In this document: piece by piece, positions 3,800 to 62,099 of the stretch
Layout: every line of letters starts with the position of its first letter
How positions within the stretch are numbered: position 1 is the first letter of the stretch
NCBI GenBank assembly: GCA_027028145.1
Contig: JALVJV010000023.1
Location: 62,001-126,000 of the forward strand
Direction: 5' to 3'
Length of the DNA: 64,000 nt
From: Archaeoglobaceae archaeon
Lineage (GTDB): Archaea; Halobacteriota; Archaeoglobi; Archaeoglobales; Archaeoglobaceae
The notes under the pieces: generated by a model
Databases searched by the model: none
Seen by the model: the letters and a program-made list of their open reading frames with translations, nothing else
What the model was told of the DNA's origin: nothing
Position numbers and translations under genes: made by a program

Positions 3800-5848
3800 A
3801 TGCTGGAAAGGATGTTCAATCCGAAAGTCGTTGCAATTATTGGCGCTACTCCGAAAGAAGGCAAGGTCGGAAATATCCTACTAAAAAATCTTAAAGATTT
3901 TAAGGGAAAGGTTTATGCCGTAAATCCGAAGTATGAAGAGGTTTTGGGTTTCAAATGCTATCCGAACGTCGAAAGCATACCGGACGATGTCGACTTGGCA
4001 GTTATAGCTGTTCCAGCAAAAGCTGTTCCAGAAGTTCTCGAATCTTGTGGCAGAAAGGGCGTAAAAAATGTGGTCGTTATAACGGCTGGCTTTAAAGAAG
4101 CCGGAAACTACGCATTGGAAAGGCAGATCGCAGAGATATGCAGGAGATACGGAATAAACATGGTAGGTCCGAACTGCTTGGGCATCATCAATACTCACAA
4201 CAACTTAAATGCAACGTTCGGCAAGGTGATGCCTCCGAAGGGAAACATAGCATTCCTAAGTCAATCCGGAGCCTTCATCTTAGCCGTTCTGGACTGGGCT
4301 AAGTCGAACAATGTCGGCTTCAGCAAGATAGTTTCCTTGGGCAACAAAGCCGTTCTGGACGAATCCGATTTTATGAGGTTCCTTGCAGAAGACGACGAAA
4401 CAGACGTGATCATGCTATACTTGGAAGGAGTCAGCGATGGGAAGAAGTTCATGGATGTAGCCAAGGATGTCTCGAAGGTAAAGCCGATAGTTGCCGTAAA
4501 GAGCGGAAGAACCGAAGCCGGAGCTAAGGCGGCATCGAGTCATACCGGTAGCTTAGCCGGGAGCTTCGTAGCTTACAGAACGGCATTCAGGCAATCCGGT
4601 GTTGTTGAGGCTGAATCCATAGAGGATCTTTTCGACTACACCCTCATACTGAGAAGAGTTCGTTCGATCAACGGCGATATAGCGATAGTAACGAATTCCG
4701 GTGGGCCCGGAGTAATCGCGGCTGATGCAGTTGAAGAATTCGGTTTAAATCTTGCAAGATTCGATAAGAAAACGATCGATAGGCTTAAATCAATTCTGCC
4801 ACCGATCGCAAACGTTTACAATCCCGTGGATGTTCTCGGAGATGCGGATGCCGAGAGATTCGGAAAAGCTTTGAAGATAGTAGCAGAAGATCAGAACGTC
4901 GGAGCTATAATCGCTATTTTGACTCCCACAGCACAAATAGATTTCGTTAAAGCTTCCGAGTTCGTTGCGAGTGTCGATAAGCCGATCGTAACTTGCTTCA
5001 TGGGTGGAGAGACTGTAGCCGACGCTGTAAATCTGCTGAAAAAACACGGTATCGTCAACTTCTTGGATCCGGTTAAAGCTGTCAAATCCCTAAACTCGGT
5101 CAAAAAATATGAGCTCATGAAAATCAAGCTTGAAAGGGAGGTGGAATCGATCGAAATAGATGTCGATACCGACAACGCGAGAAAGATCGTTGAGAAATAC
5201 AGAGATAGGAGGGTTCTAACGGCTGAAAGCTTTGAGATTCTCAAGAGCTACGGAATTCCCGTTCCTCCTTACGGGGTCGCGAGGACGGCTGAGGAGGCTT
5301 TGGAAATAGCCGATAGAATAGGTTATCCCGTCGCGATGAAGATAGTCTCCCCCGACATTCTGCATAAAACCGATGTGGGCTGTGTAAAGCTGAACGTTGA
5401 TAGGGATAGAGTTATACCGACGTTCTACGAACTCGTGAAGAGGGCTGAGGACTACCTCAAAGCGGATGTGGAAGGGGTGATGGTTCAGAAGATGATGCCT
5501 ATTGGAAGGGAAGTCATAGTGGGGATGAAGAGGGATCCGCAGTTCGGAGCGCTTATAATGTTCGGAATGGGCGGAATCTACGTTGAAGTCTTTAAGGATG
5601 TCTCCTTCAGAATAGCTCCGATATCGAAGAGCGACGCTTATGATATGATAAGGGAGGTGAAGTCATACAGGATTCTTAAGGGAGTTAGGGGGGAAAAGCC
5701 TTCCGATATAGATTCGCTTGTTGATGTCCTGCTTAGAATATCCAAGCTCAGCTTAGATTTTGAGGAGATAGTTGAAATGGATTTAAATCCGATATTCGTT
5801 TACGAGAAGGGTTGTTGTGTCGTCGATGCGAAAATCGTTTTGAGGTGA
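3800..5848 (+). CDS. acd: Acetate/acyl-CoA synthetase (ADP-forming), fused alpha and beta subunits
   Basis: About 682 residues from the ATG at 3800; a second ATG at 3812 ([13 protein letters not shown]) also fits the family start. The N-terminal half is a succinyl-CoA-synthetase-like alpha part, with a CoA-binding [18 protein letters not shown] motif and the phospho-histidine loop SSHTGSLAG. The C-terminal half (from about residue 450) is an ATP-grasp beta part with [18 protein letters not shown] and MGGIYVEV. The enzyme makes ATP from ADP and phosphate while releasing the acid from acyl-CoA. In archaea this is the main way to harvest energy from acetyl-CoA and other acyl-CoAs, or to activate acetate in reverse. 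Fusion of alpha and beta in one chain is common in Archaeoglobales. Confidence 0.92.
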
Positions 5849-50525: not shown

Positions 50526-51347
50526 TCATGAATATTGATAATTCACGTTGGGAATTACCCCGGGCCACGTAACGTTTGTCAAGTTGGTGGCGCCGTAGCC
50601 TGTGGTGTTACCGTATACGATCGCCCATGCGGTTCCGTTTATCTTCCACTTCGTGATGTTCCAGTTATGCACGCCGTTTGACAGTGTAGCTGGATTGGTT
50701 ATGTTTACGTCGAACTCCAAGCTTCTCGCGTGAGTCCAGTTAATTTTAACGGCAACGGCGGTATGGCAGGCTATGCAAGCTTCGTTTTCTCCCCTGAGTA
50801 GGGTCGAATTGTTGGCGGCTCTAACAAAAGCCAAGTGCGCCGCACAGCTTCCGGTATCTCCCGGATATGCAGTCAAACCGAATCCTCCGGCTATCACGTA
50901 ACTACTGCTGAAGACTCCCGGATTACCGTGGCACTCGTAACACGTCTGAGAGCCTATGCTTAGGTAGTAACCTACGTGATTCAGATTGTTGTATGCACCG
51001 TGGCAATCCATGCATCTCACGGTGCTCGCCGCATGAGCTTGAACACCGGGCGTATATTGTGTGTAACTACCACTTACGCTTGCGAACGAAATTCCGTTGA
51101 AACCTCCCGCCCTATGGCAAAGTTGGCATTCGAATACGTAACCGGTTTCGCCGGTGTGCGGGCCTACGTGCGCTCTCATCTCTTCGTATATATCGGCGTG
51201 GCACTTTTTACAGGGAACGTTATTTCCAGTTCCGCTTAGGTTATACCAGTAGTGTTGCCCGGCGAACAGTGAAACCGTGCTGGGTAAAACGACCAATCCC
51301 GTTGCGGCGAGGACAAGGGTTACCAGTAAAAGTTTGGCTAAGTTCAT
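50526..51347 (-). CDS. Secreted pentaheme c-type cytochrome
   Basis: 273 residues from the ATG at 51347, preceded by GGAGGGGA; an earlier in-frame start lies within the leader. Signal peptide MNLAKLLLVTLVLAATGLVVL, then five CxxCH motifs: CKKCH, CQLCH, CMDCH, CYECH and CIACH. Tyr-, Asn- and Thr-rich segments between haems and N-x-T sequons mark it as exterior. There is no lipobox and no C-terminal anchor. It differs from the tandem pair at 2.5-3.7 kb in lacking the Pro/Thr linker. TATA-like AAATATATACAC lies at about 51383-51393. Confidence 0.92.
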   Translation of the reverse strand: MNLAKLLLVTLVLAATGLVVLPSTVSLFAGQHYWYNLSGTGNNVPCKKCHADIYEEMRAHVGPHTGETGYVFECQLCHRAGGFNGISFASVSGSYTQYTPGVQAHAASTVRCMDCHGAYNNLNHVGYYLSIGSQTCYECHGNPGVFSSSYVIAGGFGLTAYPGDTGSCAAHLAFVRAANNSTLLRGENEACIACHTAVAVKINWTHARSLEFDVNITNPATLSNGVHNWNITKWKINGTAWAIVYGNTTGYGATNLTNVTWPGVIPNVNYQYS

Positions 51348-51427
51348 ACCGTCCCCTCCTAAAAATAGGTTTACCACAAAAGTGTATATATTTTTTACTA
51401 AAATGTATTTAATTTAACAATAATGTT

Positions 51428-53577: not shown

Positions 53578-55974
53578 ATGGTAATGGATCTCAGGGATGG
53601 TTTTATAGTTCTCGATGAAATGAGGAACGTCACGATTCGAATAGGGAAGGTTATCGAGGAGGATGAATGGGAGCCGATGGGTCCGACTCCGAAACCCCAC
53701 ATCCTCGACCTAAGATACTGGGATCAGAAGCTGTTGGAGAGATACGAGCCATTCTACGCACCTATGCAGGACTTCTGCAATCTGTGCACGATGGGTCCCT
53801 GTGAACTGTCGCACAACAAGGAAGGAGCTTGCGGTATCGATCTTAAAACCCAGAAAGCCAGACTGGTCGTTCTCGCATGCCTCATAGGAGCTTCATCTCA
53901 TACCGCTCATGCGAGGCACTTGGTTCACTACCTCGTCGAAAAGTTCGGCAGGGATCATCCCATTGACTTGGGAAACAACGTGAACATCGAAGCTCCGAAC
54001 GTGAGGCTCGTTTTCGGAATAAGACCAAAAACTATCGGCGATCTTGAGACGGTATTGGATTACGTCGAGCAGGAGTTGGTTAGAGTTTTGCACACCCTCC
54101 ACACCGGACAGGAGGAAAGCTACTTGGACTACGAATCGAAAGCTCTGCACGTCGGAATGCTCGATCACGTTGCGATGGAAGTGGCGGACATAGCGCAGGT
54201 AGCGGCTTTTAACTATCCGAAAGGAGATCCGGATGCTCCGTTGGTAGAGACCGGTTTCGGCGTGCTCGATCTGAACAAGCCCGTAATTCTGATTATAGGA
54301 CACAACGTCCTTCCGGCGAGAAACATCGTCGACTATTTGGAGGAGCACGGTCTTGAGAACGAAGTCGAAGTAGCCGGTTTGTGTTGCACCGCAATAGACA
54401 CAACGAGATACGATCCCAAGGCTAAGATCGTCGGAACTTTGAGCTTCGAACTCAGAGCGATCCGTTCCGGAATTCCGGATGTCGTTGTTACGGATGAACA
54501 GTGCATAAGAGCGGACACCCTTAGAGAATGCTCCAAAATGGGGATTCCGGTTATAGCTACTTCGGAAGCCGCTTCGAGGGGATTGCCCGACAGAACCCAC
54601 GAGAATCCCGATGTCATAGTAGAAGACCTCGTAAGCGGAAGGGCGAAGGGTGTTTTGATCAGAGATCCGGATAAGGTCGGAGAAATAGCGGTGAGAGTGG
54701 CTATAGAGGTAAGAAAGAGGAAGGGTAGAAAGGAGCCTTTCATGAGTGAAGAAGAACTCAAAGCCGAAGTTCAGAAGTGCACCGGCTGTGCGAGGTGCGT
54801 ATTCTCGTGTCCGCACAATCTCCGCATAGATGTTGCGATGCAACATGCAAAGAAGAAAGGGGACTTCAGCAAGTTCAGAGAGATCGAACCGACGTGTATA
54901 GCTTGCGGAAGATGCGAGCAGGTATGTCCCAAAGGGATAAGGATCGTAGATGTCATAATGAAGTCGAGCTTGGATCAGCTTAAGTCTAAAACCGGCAAGA
55001 GCAGGGCTGGAAGGGGGCCGATTCAGGATGTGGAAATTAGAAAGGTCGGACAGCCGATCGTTATGGGAACGATTCCGGGAGTCATCGCGGCAATAGGTTG
55101 TCCGAACTATCCGAGAGCAAGAGAGGAACTCGGGCAGATCGTAGAGGAGTTTTTAAAGAGGAGATACATCGTCGTAACGTCTGGCTGTCATGCGATGGAT
55201 CTGGGAATGTATACCGACGAGGAGGGCAAGAGTTTATACGAGAAGTATCCCGGTTCTTTCGATGCCGGAGGGCTTGTGAACGTCGGAAGCTGTGTTGCGA
55301 ATTCGCACATAAGCGGAGCGGTGATAAAGATAGCCGCCATATTCGCGCAGAGACCTTTGAGAGGCAACTACGCGGAGATAGCCGATTACATACTGAACAG
55401 AATAGGAGCCGTCGGTTTGGCTTGGGGTGCATACAGCCAGAAAGCGGCGTCGATTGCAACCGGCTTCAACAGACTTGGCGTTCCGGCTGTAGTCGGACCT
55501 CATTCCACAAAATACAGACGAGCCTACATCGGTAAGTATTGGAAGAAGGAGAAGTGGTGGGTTTACGACATAAAGTCGAAGAAGAAGATACCGGTTGAAC
55601 CCGCTCCAGATGCTTTGCTCGTCTGTGCGGAAACGAAGGAGGAGGCAATAGTTCAGCTTGCAAGGTTGTGTATAAGACCCGCTGACACTTACTTGGGAAG
55701 ACAGATCAAGCTCACTCACTACATAGAGCTCAGCCAGAAGTATTTGGGTTGTTTGCCAGATGACTGGCATCTGTATGTTAGAACGGAGGCAGATCTTCCA
55801 GTTAAGATGAGGGATCAACTGTTGAAGATTTTGGAAGACGAGCACGGCTGGAAGATCGACTGGAAGAACAAGAAGATTCTTGAGGGCCCGATAAGGCAAT
55901 ACGATGCTGGATTCAATCCGACGTTGGTTGAGCACGTTTACGAGAAGTATACCGGAGAGAAGATCATTAGGTGA
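53578..55974 (+). CDS. cdhA: ACDS complex subunit alpha (carbon monoxide dehydrogenase)
   Basis: 798 residues. Cys67, 70, 75 and 85 (CNLCTMGPCELSHNKEGACG) bind the B/D clusters. HVGMLDHVAMEV and GHNVLPARNIVDYL lie in the catalytic lobe. Two ferredoxin-like motifs, CTGCARCVFSCP (near residue 400) and CIACGRCEQVCP (near 438), hold the E and F clusters typical of archaeal CdhA. The Ni-Fe-S C cluster ligands lie in GLCCTAIDTTRY, DEQCIRADTLRE and later Cys motifs (SGCHAMDLG, VGSCVANSH). It interconverts CO and CO2. The ATG at 53578 or 53584 may be used. Confidence 0.96.
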   Translation: MVMDLRDGFIVLDEMRNVTIRIGKVIEEDEWEPMGPTPKPHILDLRYWDQKLLERYEPFYAPMQDFCNLCTMGPCELSHNKEGACGIDLKTQKARLVVLACLIGASSHTAHARHLVHYLVEKFGRDHPIDLGNNVNIEAPNVRLVFGIRPKTIGDLETVLDYVEQELVRVLHTLHTGQEESYLDYESKALHVGMLDHVAMEVADIAQVAAFNYPKGDPDAPLVETGFGVLDLNKPVILIIGHNVLPARNIVDYLEEHGLENEVEVAGLCCTAIDTTRYDPKAKIVGTLSFELRAIRSGIPDVVVTDEQCIRADTLRECSKMGIPVIATSEAASRGLPDRTHENPDVIVEDLVSGRAKGVLIRDPDKVGEIAVRVAIEVRKRKGRKEPFMSEEELKAEVQKCTGCARCVFSCPHNLRIDVAMQHAKKKGDFSKFREIEPTCIACGRCEQVCPKGIRIVDVIMKSSLDQLKSKTGKSRAGRGPIQDVEIRKVGQPIVMGTIPGVIAAIGCPNYPRAREELGQIVEEFLKRRYIVVTSGCHAMDLGMYTDEEGKSLYEKYPGSFDAGGLVNVGSCVANSHISGAVIKIAAIFAQRPLRGNYAEIADYILNRIGAVGLAWGAYSQKAASIATGFNRLGVPAVVGPHSTKYRRAYIGKYWKKEKWWVYDIKSKKKIPVEPAPDALLVCAETKEEAIVQLARLCIRPADTYLGRQIKLTHYIELSQKYLGCLPDDWHLYVRTEADLPVKMRDQLLKILEDEHGWKIDWKNKKILEGPIRQYDAGFNPTLVEHVYEKYTGEKIIR

Positions 55975-55979
55975 TCGCC

Positions 55980-56519
55980 ATGAGCCTCGATAAGGCTTTC
56001 GAGAGGGTTACGAGGATTTTCAATCCAGCGGACGTCCAAGTGAGTAAGTGTGCGAGCATAATAAAGCCGAAGGTGGTAGCTACGATGATAAAGAAGTCAA
56101 AGCACCCCGTTCTGATAACCGGAGGTAAACTACTTGAGGATGAAAGGCTCGTAGATTTCGTCGTCAAGCTTCACGAGAAGACGGGGATGGACGTAATCGC
56201 TACGGGTGGTTCGAGCAGACCTCTGATTGAAAGGGGTGTTGAGCCAGTCGCCACCGTATTTACGCTCCACTACGTAACCCAATACCTCACCGATCCAAAC
56301 TGGAAGGGATTTGACGGTAAGGGTAACTACGATTTAGCGGTGTTCATAGGGTTCACAGCACCATACTACCTTTCGAGGATGCTGTCAGCTTTGAAGCACT
56401 TCTCAAGGGTAAACACGATTTCGATATGCGAATACTATCAGCCGCACGCCAAGTTTAGCTTTCCGAATTTGAATGAGGATCTGTATTATGAAGCTTTGAA
56501 CATGATTTTAGAGGTGTGA
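55980..56519 (+). CDS. cdhB: ACDS complex subunit epsilon
   Basis: About 179 residues from the ATG at 55980 (MSLDKAFERVTRIFNPADVQ); the GTG at 55971 overlaps the cdhA stop but has a poorer context than the GGTGAT-preceded ATG. KHPVLITGGKLLEDERLVDFVVKL and NYDLAVFIGFTAPYYLSRMLSALKHF are the family's DHS-like Rossmann strands. It forms the alpha2-epsilon2 CO dehydrogenase core and perhaps binds FAD or aids electron passage. Confidence 0.93.
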   Translation: MSLDKAFERVTRIFNPADVQVSKCASIIKPKVVATMIKKSKHPVLITGGKLLEDERLVDFVVKLHEKTGMDVIATGGSSRPLIERGVEPVATVFTLHYVTQYLTDPNWKGFDGKGNYDLAVFIGFTAPYYLSRMLSALKHFSRVNTISICEYYQPHAKFSFPNLNEDLYYEALNMILEV

Positions 56520-56522
56520 AGG

Positions 56523-58043
56523 ATGGTCGAGAGAAGGAAGGTCGAGATCCCCGAAGGGAAGAAGGTCAAGGTTAGCGTTGGTGAGGAGGATTTCCCGTTT
56601 GAGATATCTCCGATGTTCGAGGGGGAGAGGATAAGAAAGGGAGACATGTTCGTAGAGTTAGCCGGCCCGAAGACGGTAGGATTCGAACTCGTGATATCAC
56701 TTCCTCCGGATCAGGTTGAGGACATGAAGGCAACGCTCGTCGGAATTGATCTCGACGAGATGGAAGAAGGTGGCAGGTATCCGTTCGCTATGATCTACTA
56801 CATAGCCGGCGAAAAGATCGATCCGGACATAGAGCCAGTGGTCGAAAGGAGAAACCACGAATTCCAGAATTACATCGAAGGCTACATGCACATAAACTCG
56901 AGGGACACGATTTGGATCAGAATCGGAAAGAACGCGGTTAAGAAGGGTCTTAAAAGTCTGTTGCAGATAGCAAAAGCCACGATGTTGCTGTATAAGAACG
57001 AGATGTCCTTCATAGAGAAGATAGAGGCGTTATACATAACCGACAGGGAGCTGGTTGAGAAGCTACTGAACGAGCTTGCGAGACCCATCTACGAGGAGAG
57101 AGACGCGAGGGTCGAGAAGTTGCATGACGAAGACGTCGATGAGTTCTACTCTTGTTCTCTATGCCAAAGCTTCGCTCCGACCCACGTTTGCATAATAAGT
57201 CCAGACAGACCCGCACTTTGCGGAGCGATAACTTGGTTCGATGCGAGAGCGGCATCAAAGATAGATCCGGAAGGTCCGAACAGACCCGTTCCGAAGGGAG
57301 AATGCGTGGATCCGATAGGTGGGGAATACTCCGGCGTCAACGAATTCGCGAAGCAGGAGAGCGGTGGAAGTGTGGAGAAGGTTAAACTTCACAGCTTCTT
57401 CGACAGCCCCCATACCTCATGCGGATGCTTCGAAGTCATCGGCTTCTACATGCCCGAAGTCGACGGAATAGGATTCGTGCATAGAGGGTATCCGCATCCC
57501 GCACCGAACGGCTTACCATTCTCAACTATGGCTGGGCAGACGGGTGGAGGAAAGCAGACGGTCGGATTCTTGGGCGTAGGTATGGCTTACTTCAGAAGCA
57601 AGAAGTTCCTCCAAGCCGATGGCGGATGGTATAGAGTAGTTTGGATGCCGAAGGAGCTGAAGGAGAAGGTTCTGAAGTATATTCCCGAGGATATGCGAGA
57701 CAAGATCGCCACCGAGGAGGATGCGAAGACGATAGACGAGCTGAAGGAGTTTCTCAAGAGGGTGGATCATCCGGTCGTTAAGGGGGTCGTTAGACCGGTC
57801 GATGGAAAGAAGATCACCGAAGGCTGGGTGGAGGAGAAGGAGGAAGAGAAGGCTGAAGAAGTTAAAGAGGTTCCGGCGGAAGAGGCTCCGTCCGTATTAC
57901 CAACTCAACTACCGATTCAGATGCCTCAGCTTCCTCAGATTCCTATGGCTCAGAGCATGCCCACCATAAGACTGATAATTAAGAACGCCAAGATCTACAT
58001 CGATAAGGTGGTCGTTCGAAAGGTTGAAGACAAAAAGAGCTAA
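56523..58043 (+). CDS. cdhC: ACDS complex subunit beta (acetyl-CoA synthase)
   Basis: 506 residues. Cys211, 214, 223 and 233 (CSLCQSFAPTHVC, ALCGAITWFDARAASKI) and Cys300/302 (SCGCFEVIGFYMPEVDG) build the Ni-containing A cluster, the CGC giving the distal-nickel site. It joins CO, a methyl group and CoA to acetyl-CoA. The C-terminus is long and Glu/Pro-rich (KEEEKAEEVKEVPAEEAP), then MPTIRLIIKNAKIYIDKVVV, a basic hydrophobic tail motif. That tail is repeated as a tiny gene just downstream. Confidence 0.95.
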   Translation: MVERRKVEIPEGKKVKVSVGEEDFPFEISPMFEGERIRKGDMFVELAGPKTVGFELVISLPPDQVEDMKATLVGIDLDEMEEGGRYPFAMIYYIAGEKIDPDIEPVVERRNHEFQNYIEGYMHINSRDTIWIRIGKNAVKKGLKSLLQIAKATMLLYKNEMSFIEKIEALYITDRELVEKLLNELARPIYEERDARVEKLHDEDVDEFYSCSLCQSFAPTHVCIISPDRPALCGAITWFDARAASKIDPEGPNRPVPKGECVDPIGGEYSGVNEFAKQESGGSVEKVKLHSFFDSPHTSCGCFEVIGFYMPEVDGIGFVHRGYPHPAPNGLPFSTMAGQTGGGKQTVGFLGVGMAYFRSKKFLQADGGWYRVVWMPKELKEKVLKYIPEDMRDKIATEEDAKTIDELKEFLKRVDHPVVKGVVRPVDGKKITEGWVEEKEEEKAEEVKEVPAEEAPSVLPTQLPIQMPQLPQIPMAQSMPTIRLIIKNAKIYIDKVVVRKVEDKKS

Positions 58044-58052
58044 GTCGTGATC

Positions 58053-58145
58053 ATGAGGGATGAAAGGCAGAACGCTGGAAAGTTTAAAATTATTTTAAAA
58101 GATGCTAAGATATACATCGAAAAGGTCAGGTTCGAAGAAGAGTAG
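58053..58145 (+). CDS. 30-residue mini-protein resembling the CdhC C-terminal tail
   Basis: An ATG at 58053 opens a 30-codon frame ending at a TAG. It reads MRDERQNAGKFKIILKDAKIY followed by IEKVRFEEE, and its core aligns with the last part of CdhC, IIKNAKIYIDKVVVRK (KIILKDAKIYIEKVRF). The gene lies between cdhC and cooC with weak ribosome-binding bases (GTGATC) touching the ATG. It looks like a duplicated CdhC tail domain made as a separate peptide. Whether it is translated is unknown; conservation would decide. Confidence 0.6.
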   Translation: MRDERQNAGKFKIILKDAKIYIEKVRFEEE

Positions 58146-58157
58146 CGGGGATCTTCT

Positions 58158-58916
58158 GTGGTTGTGATAGCAGTGACGGGGAAGGGCGGAACCGGAAAGA
58201 CTGCGATAGCCGCTCTGTTAGTTAAGTTTATCTCCGAAAAGACATCCAACATTTTAGCCGTCGATGCCGATCCGGATTCGAATCTGCCGGATGCTTTGGG
58301 CGTGGAAGTCGAGAAAACGCTTGGAGATGTCAGAGAGTTGTTTCAGGTTACGAGGGATTCCTTGGGAACTGTCGATAAGGGATTGTGGCTCGAAGGAAAG
58401 ATATTCGAAGCCATCCACGAGTTCGAGAACTTCGATCTCCTCGTTATGGGTCGGCCTGAAGGTGAAGGCTGTTACTGCTTCGTGAACAACCTACTCAGGG
58501 GGATTTTGAAGAAGTTTATGAGGCATTACGATCACGTGATAGTCGATTGCGAAGCCGGATTGGAGCACTTCAGCAGGAAAACGATAGAGGGTGCGGATTA
58601 CATAGTCGTAGTTACCGACACATCCCGAAAGGGTCTAAAGACGGCTAAGAAGATAAAGGATTTGGTTGAAGAGCTCAATCTAAACTTTAGGGAGATGTTC
58701 CTCGTCGGAAACAAAATAGTGGGAGATGAGGCGAAGGAGGTCATAAAGAATTTCGCAAAGGAGGAAGGTTTCGTTCTGCTTGATCTTCTGCCTTACGATG
58801 AAGAGGTCGTCGAGCTCGATCTGAGAGGAGAGCCCATAGTTAACCTATCCGAAGATTCGGAGTTCGCGAGGAGGGTTAGGCTTATTGCGGAAGTTCTTAC
58901 GGGGTGGGGGTCGTGA
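58158..58916 (+). CDS. cooC: CooC-type ATPase, CO dehydrogenase nickel-insertion factor
   Basis: 252 residues from a GTG preceded by GCGGGGAT. MinD/ParA-like P-loop: VVIAVTGKGGTGKTAIAALLVKFI, with LAVDADPDSNLPDALG, VMGRPEGEGCYCFVNNLLR and HVIVDCEAGLEHFSRKTIEGADYIVVVTDTS. The Cys pair (GCYC) suits Ni or Zn binding between two monomers. It delivers nickel to CdhA and CdhC. It lies within the ACDS operon and shares four bases with cdhD. Confidence 0.93.
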   Translation: MVVIAVTGKGGTGKTAIAALLVKFISEKTSNILAVDADPDSNLPDALGVEVEKTLGDVRELFQVTRDSLGTVDKGLWLEGKIFEAIHEFENFDLLVMGRPEGEGCYCFVNNLLRGILKKFMRHYDHVIVDCEAGLEHFSRKTIEGADYIVVVTDTSRKGLKTAKKIKDLVEELNLNFREMFLVGNKIVGDEAKEVIKNFAKEEGFVLLDLLPYDEEVVELDLRGEPIVNLSEDSEFARRVRLIAEVLTGWGS

Positions 58917-60208
58917 AGATAGACGACCTGTTCAAGCTGTTGAAGAAGTATAACGTTGAAGAGCTTGAAGGAGTGCGTATTGAGGGTGATATCGAAATAG
59001 AAATAGAATCCGGAGCGAATATTCTTCCGATCATTCAGGCTTTGGCTCAAGAGCTCGGAATGGCGGCTTATCATTTGGCAAGAGCATCGAAGATCTTAGG
59101 ATTTCCGGTTGAGCAACTCTTCGGCGGTGAGCTTAAGCCGGAAATTGAAAAAAAATTGGAGAAGAAAGAAGAGCTACCGCGAGAATTGATTAAAGCCGAA
59201 TTTAAGCCATACAAGGCTAAATTTCCCGGGAAGATAAACGAGGTGACATTGGGAGCAACGCCAAAGGAGGGAGGAACGAGAAAGTATACGATCACCGTCG
59301 GTGGAGAGAGGAGTTTGCCTTTCTACTTCTTCGATGCCGAGCAACCCCATTTGCCGGTGATCACTATAGACGTTTTCGACAAGCCCGTTCCATTCCCCAA
59401 AGCCGTTAGAGAGCACTACGAGGATGTGATGGACGATCCAGCGGAATGGGCTAAGAAGGTGGTAAAGGACTTCGGAGCGGATATGGTTACGATTCATCTG
59501 ATAAGCACGGATCCCTTGCTCGATGATACTCCGATCCACGAAGCGGTTAAGACTGTTGAGGAGGTTCTTCAAGCCGTCAAATGTCCCATAGTCGTCGGAG
59601 GTAGCGGTAACAAGGAGAAGGATCCGCCTTTACTTGAGAAGGTTGCTGAGGTGGCTGAAGGGGAAAGAGTATTGCTCGCATCTGCAACGCTCGATACCGA
59701 CTGGGAGAGAATTGCGAATGCCGCGAAGAAGCACAATCAGGTCGTTTTGGCTTGGACTCAGCTCGATATAAACTCCCAGAAAACTCTGAACAGGTATCTG
59801 CTCAAGAAGGCTGGATTGTCGCCGAACAGCTTAGTTATGGATCCCACAACCGCCCCCCTCGGATACGGCATAGACTACGCTTTCTCAAACATGGAGAGGA
59901 TCAGACTCGCCGCTTTAAAAGGTGACGTGGATTTGGCATTCCCGATTTCGAGCGGAACGACGAACGCATGGGGTGCGAGAGAGGCGTGGATGAAGGAGTC
60001 GCCGATTTCGGGCGACACATCTTGGGGGCCGAGGGAGTTGAGGGGTCCGCTCTGGGAGATCGTAACGGGACTGACGCTCGCTTTGGCTGGTGTCGACATA
60101 TTCATGATGCTCCATCCAGCGAGCGTTGCCGTTCTTAAGGACGTTATAAGCATGCTCGGAGGAAAGTCGAAGGAGAGCGTCGATAAGGATTGGCTGGTGG
60201 TAGCATGA
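58913..60208 (+). CDS. cdhD: ACDS complex subunit delta (corrinoid Fe-S protein, small)
   Basis: About 431 residues from the GTG at 58913, overlapping the cooC stop (GTGA) with GGTGGGGG upstream. A TIM-barrel of the dihydropteroate-synthase type: FGADMVTIHLISTDPLLDDTPIHEAVKTVEEVLQ, PIVVGGSGNKEKDPPLLEKVAEVA, and SPNSLVMDPTTAPLGYGIDYAFSNMERIR. With CdhE it carries the B12 methyl group between tetrahydromethanopterin and CdhC. An extra N-terminal domain of about 70 residues (DDLFKLLKKYNVEELEGVRI) precedes the barrel, as usual in archaea. Confidence 0.93.
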   Translation: MKIDDLFKLLKKYNVEELEGVRIEGDIEIEIESGANILPIIQALAQELGMAAYHLARASKILGFPVEQLFGGELKPEIEKKLEKKEELPRELIKAEFKPYKAKFPGKINEVTLGATPKEGGTRKYTITVGGERSLPFYFFDAEQPHLPVITIDVFDKPVPFPKAVREHYEDVMDDPAEWAKKVVKDFGADMVTIHLISTDPLLDDTPIHEAVKTVEEVLQAVKCPIVVGGSGNKEKDPPLLEKVAEVAEGERVLLASATLDTDWERIANAAKKHNQVVLAWTQLDINSQKTLNRYLLKKAGLSPNSLVMDPTTAPLGYGIDYAFSNMERIRLAALKGDVDLAFPISSGTTNAWGAREAWMKESPISGDTSWGPRELRGPLWEIVTGLTLALAGVDIFMMLHPASVAVLKDVISMLGGKSKESVDKDWLVVA

Positions 60209-61626
60209 AGGCTAAGAGTCCGCTCGAAATTTACAAGCTTCTTCCCCAAACGAACTGCGGGGAATGTGGATTCGACACCTGCATGAGCTTTGCCGCTCAT
60301 CTATTGGACAGATCTGCAAAACCGACTCAATGCAAGCCTTTGGTCGAGCAAGCGAAGAAGGATGAGAAGGCTAGGAAAAAGCTTCAGCAGATAGAGGAGC
60401 TCGTTGCTCCGGAGATAGCCGAAGTAGTGATAGGAACCGGAGATTACGCGGTTAAGATAGGTGGAGAGGACGTTCTCCACAGGCACGAGCTTACGTTTTA
60501 CAATCCCACAGCCTTCTTCTACGACATTCCCGACACGTTGGATGATAAGGAGATAGACGAGCGATGTAGTAGGGTCGTTGAATACAGGAAGTTCTACGTC
60601 GGAAAGTTCCTGACGATCGAAGGAATGGCGGTTCGATGCGTTTCCGGTGATGCGAAGAGGTTTAGGGATGTGGTTAAGAAGGTAGCCGGCTACGGAAGAC
60701 CTATGATCTTGGTTTCGCTCGATCCGAAATGCATGAGATCGGCGTTAGAAGTAGTGGCGGATAAGAGACCACTCATATACGCGGCAACCGAGGATAATTG
60801 GAGGGAGTTTCTGAAGCTTGCTCTGGAATTTAAGGTTCCGGTGACGTTGAGATCTAAGGATCTAAACACCCTCAAGAGCTTAGCGGTCACATTTAGAAAG
60901 GTAGGTGTTAAGGATATCGTGCTCGATCCAGTTACCGAGCCTTTGGGTGAGGGATTGAGAGGAACGTTCGAGAGGGTGATTCAGCTTAGGAGAACCGCCA
61001 TCCACGAAGACAAGGATGTCGCATATCCGATAATGGTAACTCCCATCTCCGCTTGGGTTATCGAAGGTGATGATGTGGCAAAAGCTTACTGGGAGTGCGT
61101 GATAGGTGCGATATTCATAGTGAAGTATGCCGACGTGATGATATTCAAGAGTCTTGAGCCTTGGACGATCATGCCGCTCGTAATCTTGAGGCAGAACATA
61201 TACACGGATCCGAGAGTGCCTGTGCAGGTCGAACCCGGTTTGAGAAAGATCGGAAATCCGGACGAGAATTCTCCGGTTATGATCACAACGAACTTCGCCC
61301 TGACCTACTATACGGTCGAGAGCGATCTTACGAGCGCGAAGATAGACTGCTGGCTTTTAGTTCTCGATACGGGCGGAATATGCGTTGAAGCCGCCGTGGC
61401 TGGAGGAAAGTTCACCGCAAGCGGAGTCAAGGAGTTGATGAAGCAGACGAAGATAGAGGAGAAGGTGAAGCATCGGTATCTGATAATCCCCGGTTTAGCG
61501 GCGAGGCTGAAGGGTGCGATAGAGGATGAGACTGGCTGGAAGATCTTAGTTGGGCCGATAGATTCGGGAAGGATTAAAGGTTGGCTCGAACAGAACTGGC
61601 CTCCTAAGAACGGAGATAGATCTTAA
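60205..61626 (+). CDS. cdhE: ACDS complex subunit gamma (corrinoid Fe-S protein, large)
   Basis: About 473 residues from the ATG at 60205, overlapping the cdhD stop (ATGA). Cys18, 21, 26 and 43 (TNCGECGFDTCMSF...TQCKPL) hold a [4Fe-4S] cluster that reductively activates the corrinoid. The TIM-barrel middle has VKDIVLDPVTEPLGEGL. The C-terminal domain (ITTNFALTYYTVESDLTSAKIDCWLLVLDTGGICVEAAVAGGKF) binds the B12 base-off. This is the last gene of the operon. A similar Fe-S start occurs in the FwdG-like gene at 51.5 kb. Confidence 0.95.
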   Translation: MKAKSPLEIYKLLPQTNCGECGFDTCMSFAAHLLDRSAKPTQCKPLVEQAKKDEKARKKLQQIEELVAPEIAEVVIGTGDYAVKIGGEDVLHRHELTFYNPTAFFYDIPDTLDDKEIDERCSRVVEYRKFYVGKFLTIEGMAVRCVSGDAKRFRDVVKKVAGYGRPMILVSLDPKCMRSALEVVADKRPLIYAATEDNWREFLKLALEFKVPVTLRSKDLNTLKSLAVTFRKVGVKDIVLDPVTEPLGEGLRGTFERVIQLRRTAIHEDKDVAYPIMVTPISAWVIEGDDVAKAYWECVIGAIFIVKYADVMIFKSLEPWTIMPLVILRQNIYTDPRVPVQVEPGLRKIGNPDENSPVMITTNFALTYYTVESDLTSAKIDCWLLVLDTGGICVEAAVAGGKFTASGVKELMKQTKIEEKVKHRYLIIPGLAARLKGAIEDETGWKILVGPIDSGRIKGWLEQNWPPKNGDRS

Positions 61627-61631
61627 AATTT

Positions 61632-62099
61632 TTATTCGATTCCCCTCTTCCTAAAGAATTCCTCATACTCCTTCAACCTACTTTTAACGACATCGACGAT
61701 CCTCTTGATTATTCTCGTACTCGAACAGAACTCGCATTCCTCCTTTACCTTTATTCTAACAACCTTTGTGTTCAATCCCCTTTTCCTCAACTCTTCTTCG
61801 AGCTTCTTCTCGTCGAAGTGCTGATCGTAGCCCAAAACGATTATGTCCGGCTTTAACTCAATTATCGGCTTGAACATGTCGTGCTCATCACCCAAGATGG
61901 CTCTATCGACCGGCTTTAGAGCTTCCACCACCCTTCTCCTCTGCTCCTCTGGAATTATCGGCTTGGGTTTGTGCCGAACGTTCTTCTCTCTTGCAACGAT
62001 GACTATGAGCTCGTCACCCAACTTCTTGGCTTCTTCAAGGAATCTGATGTGACCGGGATGGATTATGTCGAAAGTTCCCGTTGCCACCACTCTGACCAT
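61632..62099 (-). CDS. ribL: FAD synthetase, archaeal RibL
   Basis: 155 residues of the nucleotidyltransferase fold: VVATGTFDIIHPGHIRFLEEAKKLGDEL (the HxGH loop HPGH), IILGYDQHF-type centre (IIVLGYDQHFDEKKL), and a C-terminal ECEFCSSTRIIKRI with the STR motif and two cysteines typical of RibL. It adenylates FMN to FAD. Its end lies six bases past cdhE, convergently. Confidence 0.92.
   Translation of the reverse strand: MVRVVATGTFDIIHPGHIRFLEEAKKLGDELIVIVAREKNVRHKPKPIIPEEQRRRVVEALKPVDRAILGDEHDMFKPIIELKPDIIVLGYDQHFDEKKLEEELRKRGLNTKVVRIKVKEECEFCSSTRIIKRIVDVVKSRLKEYEEFFRKRGIE

Follow-up and report, generated by a model that had tools for sequence, protein, structure and literature searches.

The cdh operon of the window

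The ACDS genes in the window, by which we mean the whole 64,000-nucleotide stretch of DNA that was analysed, are arranged in the order cdhA-cdhB-cdhC-(micro-gene)-cooC-like-cdhD-cdhE. The features of the locus are as follows.

53578..55974 (+): cdhA, CO dehydrogenase alpha subunit (Pfam Prismane)
55971..56519 (+): cdhB, epsilon subunit (Pfam CO_dh PF02552)
56523..58043 (+): cdhC, acetyl-CoA synthase (ACDS beta subunit; Pfam PF03598, PF19436; TIGR00316)
57783..57965 (+): low-complexity linker from the catalytic part of CdhC to its tail (from the translation; limits by eye)
57966..58022 (+): CdhC tail core IRLIIKNAKIYIDKVVVRK, the module in its fused form (profile comparison)
58047..58055 (+): start region GTGATCATG, in which ATG 58053 is the conserved start
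58053..58145 (+): micro-gene encoding a free-standing tail-like protein (30 codons plus stop, frame intact)
58083..58133 (+): tail-like core FKIILKDAKIYIEKVRF of the micro-protein (profile matches)
58158..58916 (+): cooC-like P-loop ATPase (Pfam CbiA/AAA_31/Fer4_NifH)
58904..60208 (+): cdhD, corrinoid protein delta subunit (Pfam CdhD, NF003375)
60190..61626 (+): cdhE, corrinoid protein gamma subunit (Pfam CdhD + FeS)

The micro-gene is translated as MRDERQNAGKFKIILKDAKIYIEKVRFEEE followed by a stop, and lies between cdhC and the cooC-like gene, whose name rests on operon place and fold, not on a CooC-specific model. A preliminary description had claimed a stand-alone, tail-like gene of 30 codons inside the ACDS operon, and such a gene is indeed present at these positions. 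ATG 58053 is the start common to all five genomes of the window's genus, and an in-frame GTG at 58047 is present in only two of them. GTGATC within the start region partially matches GGAGGTGATC, the archaeal Shine-Dalgarno consensus. CdhC itself ends in IRLIIKNAKIYIDKVVVRKVEDKKS, and the linker that leads to its tail is composed first of E/K and then of P/Q/M-rich sequence.

The micro-protein was not recognised by Pfam or NCBIfam models. TIGR00316 aligned to it at model positions 437-456 only (E 0.067, below the cut-off), and the catalytic A2/A3 domains of CdhC are absent from its 30 residues, which had no Pfam match. Among the aligned micro-proteins, Pfam matches to DUF5118 and BBIP10 (one each, E 0.075 and 0.11, respectively) were dismissed as chance. 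No Rfam family was matched at the gathering score within 55000-62000, and the region is thus not read as a structured RNA. Elsewhere in the window, a frame on the reverse strand (50526-51377) contains the CxxCH motifs CKKCH, CQLCH, CMDCH, CYECH and CIACH and, by eye, probably encodes a multihaem c-type cytochrome.

Conservation of the micro-gene in the Archaeoglobales

CdhC was present in 51/57 genomes of the order, and the 3' end of cdhC was readable in 50 loci of 49 genomes after two genomes with partial CdhC (G012 and G031) were dropped. A tail-like frame follows cdhC in 37/50 loci (36/49 genomes, 9/14 genera), and in all 37 it lies between cdhC and the cooC-like gene, that is, within the cdh operon. 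The encoded micro-proteins range from 22 to 43 residues across the Archaeoglobaceae. Within seven genus groups, compared as consecutive pairs, pN/pS was 0.115 in the coding frame and 1.30 and 2.35 in the other two frames of the same DNA, and differences at codon positions 1, 2 and 3 numbered 69, 44 and 253. The dN/dS of the micro-gene was 0.13 in the window's genus and 0.02 in group g2, with g8 and g12 omitted due to saturation of their synonymous sites. The preliminary description had named as its check the same frame, with a synonymous bias, in the cdhC-cooC gap of relatives, and the 37 loci and their pN/pS supply both. The frame also withstood the sequence-based refuting condition named there, namely lack of conservation or stops in relatives. 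The open frame and the purifying selection in relatives are those of a protein-coding gene, and the absence of selection that marks a pseudogene was not seen. These results indicated that the micro-gene is almost certainly a real protein-coding gene.

Genomes with the micro-gene include those that we take to be A. fulgidus (G001), Ferroglobus placidus (G023) and Geoglobus (G026 and G027), and those without it presumably include A. sulfaticallidus (G014) and A. veneficus (G020). Its absence from 13/50 loci indicates that it is dispensable in several lineages. On a CdhC-core tree of 56 rows, in which deep branches inside the family are partly unresolved, the micro-gene label requires five changes, the simplest account of which is that the micro-gene was gained once, at the base of the family, and lost four times (g3, g5, g4 and 2/6 g12 rows). 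In 80 loci from named records, the frame was found only in Archaeoglobus, Geoglobus, Ferroglobus and records labelled Archaeoglobi, Archaeoglobales or Archaeoglobaceae archaeon; these records overlap many of the genomes surveyed before and are not independent counts. No description of this micro-gene was found in the open-access literature. In A. fulgidus, cdhCDE is listed under the consecutive tags AF0376-AF0379, so that, should cooC account for one of them, no tag would be left for the micro-gene.

The assembly G030 has two cdhC loci (L023 and L039), both with the micro-gene; either the genome carries the locus twice or the bin is mixed. A second, distant CdhC-like frame (e.g. G026:C1:1423705 and G027:C1:775401) of about 30-44% identity, often 360-395 codons long and in some cases with a stop inside the match, was also present in many Archaeoglobales genomes.

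The micro ATG overlaps the cdhC stop in 26/37 loci (a one-base overlap in 22, a four-base overlap in 4), and in 16/37 the end of the micro-gene runs into the aligned start of the cooC-like gene. In all five genomes of the window's genus, the micro-gene starts 9 bases past the cdhC stop. The overlaps are what would be expected if the frame served mainly to link translation of cooC to that of cdhC through overlapping stops and starts, with the peptide as a by-product. However, conservation extends to the peptide sequence, which matches that of the CdhC tail, and the 13 loci that lack the micro-gene couple cdhC straight to the cooC-like gene (gap of -7 to 19 bases), which indicates that a relay is not needed. 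We regard a role confined to translational coupling as very unlikely. Readthrough of the CdhC stop codon into the micro-gene was also considered. It would be in frame only in the window's genus and two g12 loci (L010 and L026); in most other loci the micro start overlaps the cdhC stop but lies in a different frame, and readthrough was therefore rejected as a conserved mechanism.

Homology to the CdhC tail and reversal of charge

That the peptide core matches the end of CdhC had been stated in the preliminary description and was confirmed using tail profiles and shuffled sequences. The window peptide scored 31.4 bits against a profile of 92 unique CdhC tails (best among 20,000 shuffles, 20.2) and 30.3 bits against a profile of 49 tails from outside the Archaeoglobales (best among 1000 shuffles, 11.1). 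With the latter profile, 33/37 micro-proteins scored higher than any of their own 1000 shuffles; the remaining four (L017, L018, L022 and L034) were outscored by 1-4 of 1000. Comparison of the profiles of 92 tails and 33 micro-proteins gave a probability of 90-92% (P 1e-7 to 2e-7) over 30 columns. When the window's own genome was searched, the gene itself was followed by the CdhC tail (E 0.004) and then by a chance-level site (E 0.2). The micro profile found CdhC tails in many of 392 genomes of the phylum (best E outside the order, 3.5e-7), and 151 of the 392 had a match of any kind at E 0.02, micro-proteins included. The micro-protein matches the CdhC tail beyond chance, its core FKIILKDAKIYIEKVRF aligning with the tail core IRLIIKNAKIYIDKVVVRK, and by sequence homology it belongs with the C-terminal tail module of CdhC. 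One further candidate frame, L086 (G352), looks by eye to be of ribosomal-protein-L24 type and was set aside as a chance match.

Homology to the adjacent CdhC end would also be left by a scar of a duplicated or truncated cdhC, which the preliminary description had offered as an alternative. The frame, however, is intact in nine genera under purifying selection, and this refutes the scar as a description of the present-day gene; we consider it hardly credible. An ancient duplication of the tail probably gave rise to the micro-gene.

Signatures were compared between 90 unique tail cores and 25 unique micro cores, the hydrophobic positions of which coincide. Position +2 is N/D in 99% of tails and G in 92% of micro-proteins, position +9 is K/R in 98% of tails and E in 68% of micro-proteins, and positions +13/+14 are mostly K/R in tails compared to E in 88% of micro-proteins. 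The net charge of the end averages +2.03 in tails (84/100 positive) and -2.12 in micro-proteins (28/33 negative). Most genera carry the micro signature KGA.I.[IV].E, and the combination that defines tails ([ND] at +2, K/R at +9 and a basic end) does not hold for the micro-proteins as a group. The window's genus is intermediate: position +2 is D, N or G (D in the window peptide), position +9 is K/R (K in the window peptide) and the end is acidic, so that the charge reversal there is confined to the end.

The shared motif and operon, the production of the micro-protein beside CdhC, and the core of the window's genus, which is the closest to the tail, are consistent with a competitor that would take the docking site of the CdhC tail, displace the acetyl-CoA synthase (ACS) and so set the amount of ACS attached. 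Most genera, however, consistently change the tail-defining residues at +2, +9 and the end, and a mimic of the same site needs no such change. A competitor of this kind appears unlikely. The same skeleton with reversed charges suggests pairing halves or neighbouring sites more than a single-site competitor, and the charge-reversed sequence of most genera argues for the role of a distinct partner over plain competition at one site.

Through the phylum, the CdhC tail follows a consensus of roughly [GP][IV]K[IL]xLK[ND]AxIxI[DG][KR][IV]I[IV]K (44 loci listed). The M. thermophila CdhC chain in the solved complex includes the tail sequence. According to PMC11474084, residues 398-472 of this chain are without density in the 2024 cryo-EM CODH/ACS structures, and the stretch that corresponds to the window's linker falls in that region. 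As stated in that paper, the archaeal ACS has a C-terminal extension of about 75 residues whose function is given as unknown, and the authors suggest that a flexible extension likely matters for the swinging of ACS from CO dehydrogenase to the corrinoid protein and back; limited proteolysis is also related to release a truncated beta subunit from the ACDS complex, which is 2.2 MDa (PMC11474084). This extension (TIGR00316; M. thermophila 398-472, PDB 9c0s/9c0t) has the homologous motif at its very end. The micro-protein differs from it in being free-standing and without catalytic domains and, in most genera, in its acidic end and in the residues at +2 (G) and +9 (E).

An AlphaFold model of the micro-protein alone (70 aligned rows) had a mean pLDDT of 81.6, with 88-89 for residues 11-30, a pTM of 0.24 and no intrachain strand pairing; its confidence is local only. 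If the model is right, the micro-protein would be an extended peptide that needs a partner. Tail and micro-protein modelled as one chain gave low confidence (pLDDT 55.7), and a Foldseek search returned no match.

Detached tails and a candidate docking role

In 11 loci of 10 genomes from six families (L073-L076, L078-L082, L084 and L085; families f8, f9, f19, f21, f26 and f34), CdhC lacks the tail and a separate tail gene is adjacent. The separate gene has 56-71 codons, starts at most 45 bases from cdhC and usually encodes a K-rich N-terminus and a low-complexity linker before the tail motif at its end. Two loci cut by contig ends (L071 in G158 and L083 in G183) and two with a separate tail frame where the fetched stretch gave no match to CdhC (L072 and L077) were left out of this count. 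The tail-less CdhC ends in a winged-helix-like stretch (..YIE..GEID...A..L..SE.Q...V...L...GILE) that is missing from the tailed CdhCs examined; in the one protein tested, this end matched DUF7343 weakly (E 0.0059, below the curated cut-off).

Family f21, which we take to be Methanotrichaceae, has two successive tail genes in 4/5 loci (L074, L075, L076 and L079) and only the first in L078. One of the pair is of the ordinary tail type and the other has an RGA-like core and EV at +9/+10; both open with a K-rich strand followed by an A/P linker. The second copy in G377, presumably Methanothrix soehngenii, scored 17.5 bits with the micro profile and 4.6 with the tail profile, whereas that in G237, presumably Methanothrix harundinacea, scored 6.2 and 10.1, respectively. 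The former is nearer to the micro-proteins but the latter is not, and common descent of the second copies is therefore unproven.

Judged from these gene arrangements, the CdhC tail is a detachable module. Its detachment beside a tail-less CdhC, and its doubling in four of the five f21 loci, indicate that it can work unlinked, and its splitting into a gene of its own in other archaea suggests a plug-in docking piece. Like the micro-gene, the separate tail genes are small, follow cdhC and end in the motif. They are longer, with a K-rich N-terminus and linker that the Archaeoglobaceae micro-protein lacks, and they replace the CdhC tail, whereas the Archaeoglobaceae micro-gene is a second copy beside a retained tail.

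Further frames were seen before the cooC-like gene in two of these loci, at 4592-4711 of oriented L080 (39 codons, ILKEYSIELVGVTIEGDIEIEIEEI) and at 4340-4414 of oriented L081. The L080 mini-frame resembles the CdhD N-terminus of other archaea, which holds a conserved acidic stretch (LEGVxIEGDIEIEIE), and CdhD of L080 aligns to the window's CdhD from residue 89 onward only. The CdhD N-terminus was tried as a third copy of the motif and rejected, as profile comparison with tails and micro-proteins gave P 0.36-0.98 and no homology.

The constant place of the micro-gene beside the cooC-like gene (37/37 loci) would fit an assembly or maturation factor that acts transiently, outside the finished complex, for example by keeping hold of the CdhC tail or by bringing CdhC to the CooC-like ATPase when metal is inserted. 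Set against this, L073 and L085 have separate tail genes and no downstream cooC-like gene was found in the fetched stretch. We consider a maturation factor improbable.

We put at about an even chance the reading that the micro-protein is a small subunit of ACDS that docks through the strand motif of the tail, with the CdhC tail probably as its docking partner. Overlap or close spacing of the cdhC stop codon and the micro-gene start codon would keep synthesis of the micro-protein in step with that of CdhC. The CdhC tail, on its flexible linker, would act as a docking peptide by which the complex retains the mobile synthase during its travel between CO dehydrogenase and the corrinoid protein. 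The micro-protein, alike in hydrophobic skeleton but mostly opposite in charge, would either pair with the CdhC tail or fill a neighbouring docking position, and would thereby complete or tune attachment of the synthase. Of these, a specific pairing with the tail is a possibility that we regard as rather doubtful. Equally tentative is a plug-and-socket arrangement, in which the basic motif on the CdhC tail might zip with the acidic motif on the micro-protein to hold the swinging synthase, the acidic half in Archaeoglobaceae being a sixth subunit. Such a system is not described in the literature searched. As described in PMC13370731 and PMC12774963, MtrR and MtrI of Methanosarcina mazei are likewise very small and act on a complex of an archaeal C1 pathway; theirs is the Mtr complex, whereas the micro-gene belongs to the ACDS operon, and the likeness is one of description.

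A conserved gene of a central carbon-fixation/methane pathway was thus found below the size of routine gene calling, as the preliminary description had supposed. If the plug-and-socket arrangement is true, archaea would differ in whether the motif is joined to the synthase, encoded apart from it or present twice next to it. Archaea with the tail as a separate peptide, together with a charge-reversed second copy, provide ready reagents, since the tail peptide can be added, removed or swapped with the catalytic subunit untouched. With the tail and its second copy available as separate peptides, the way in which the 2.2 MDa complex holds and moves ACS becomes directly testable.
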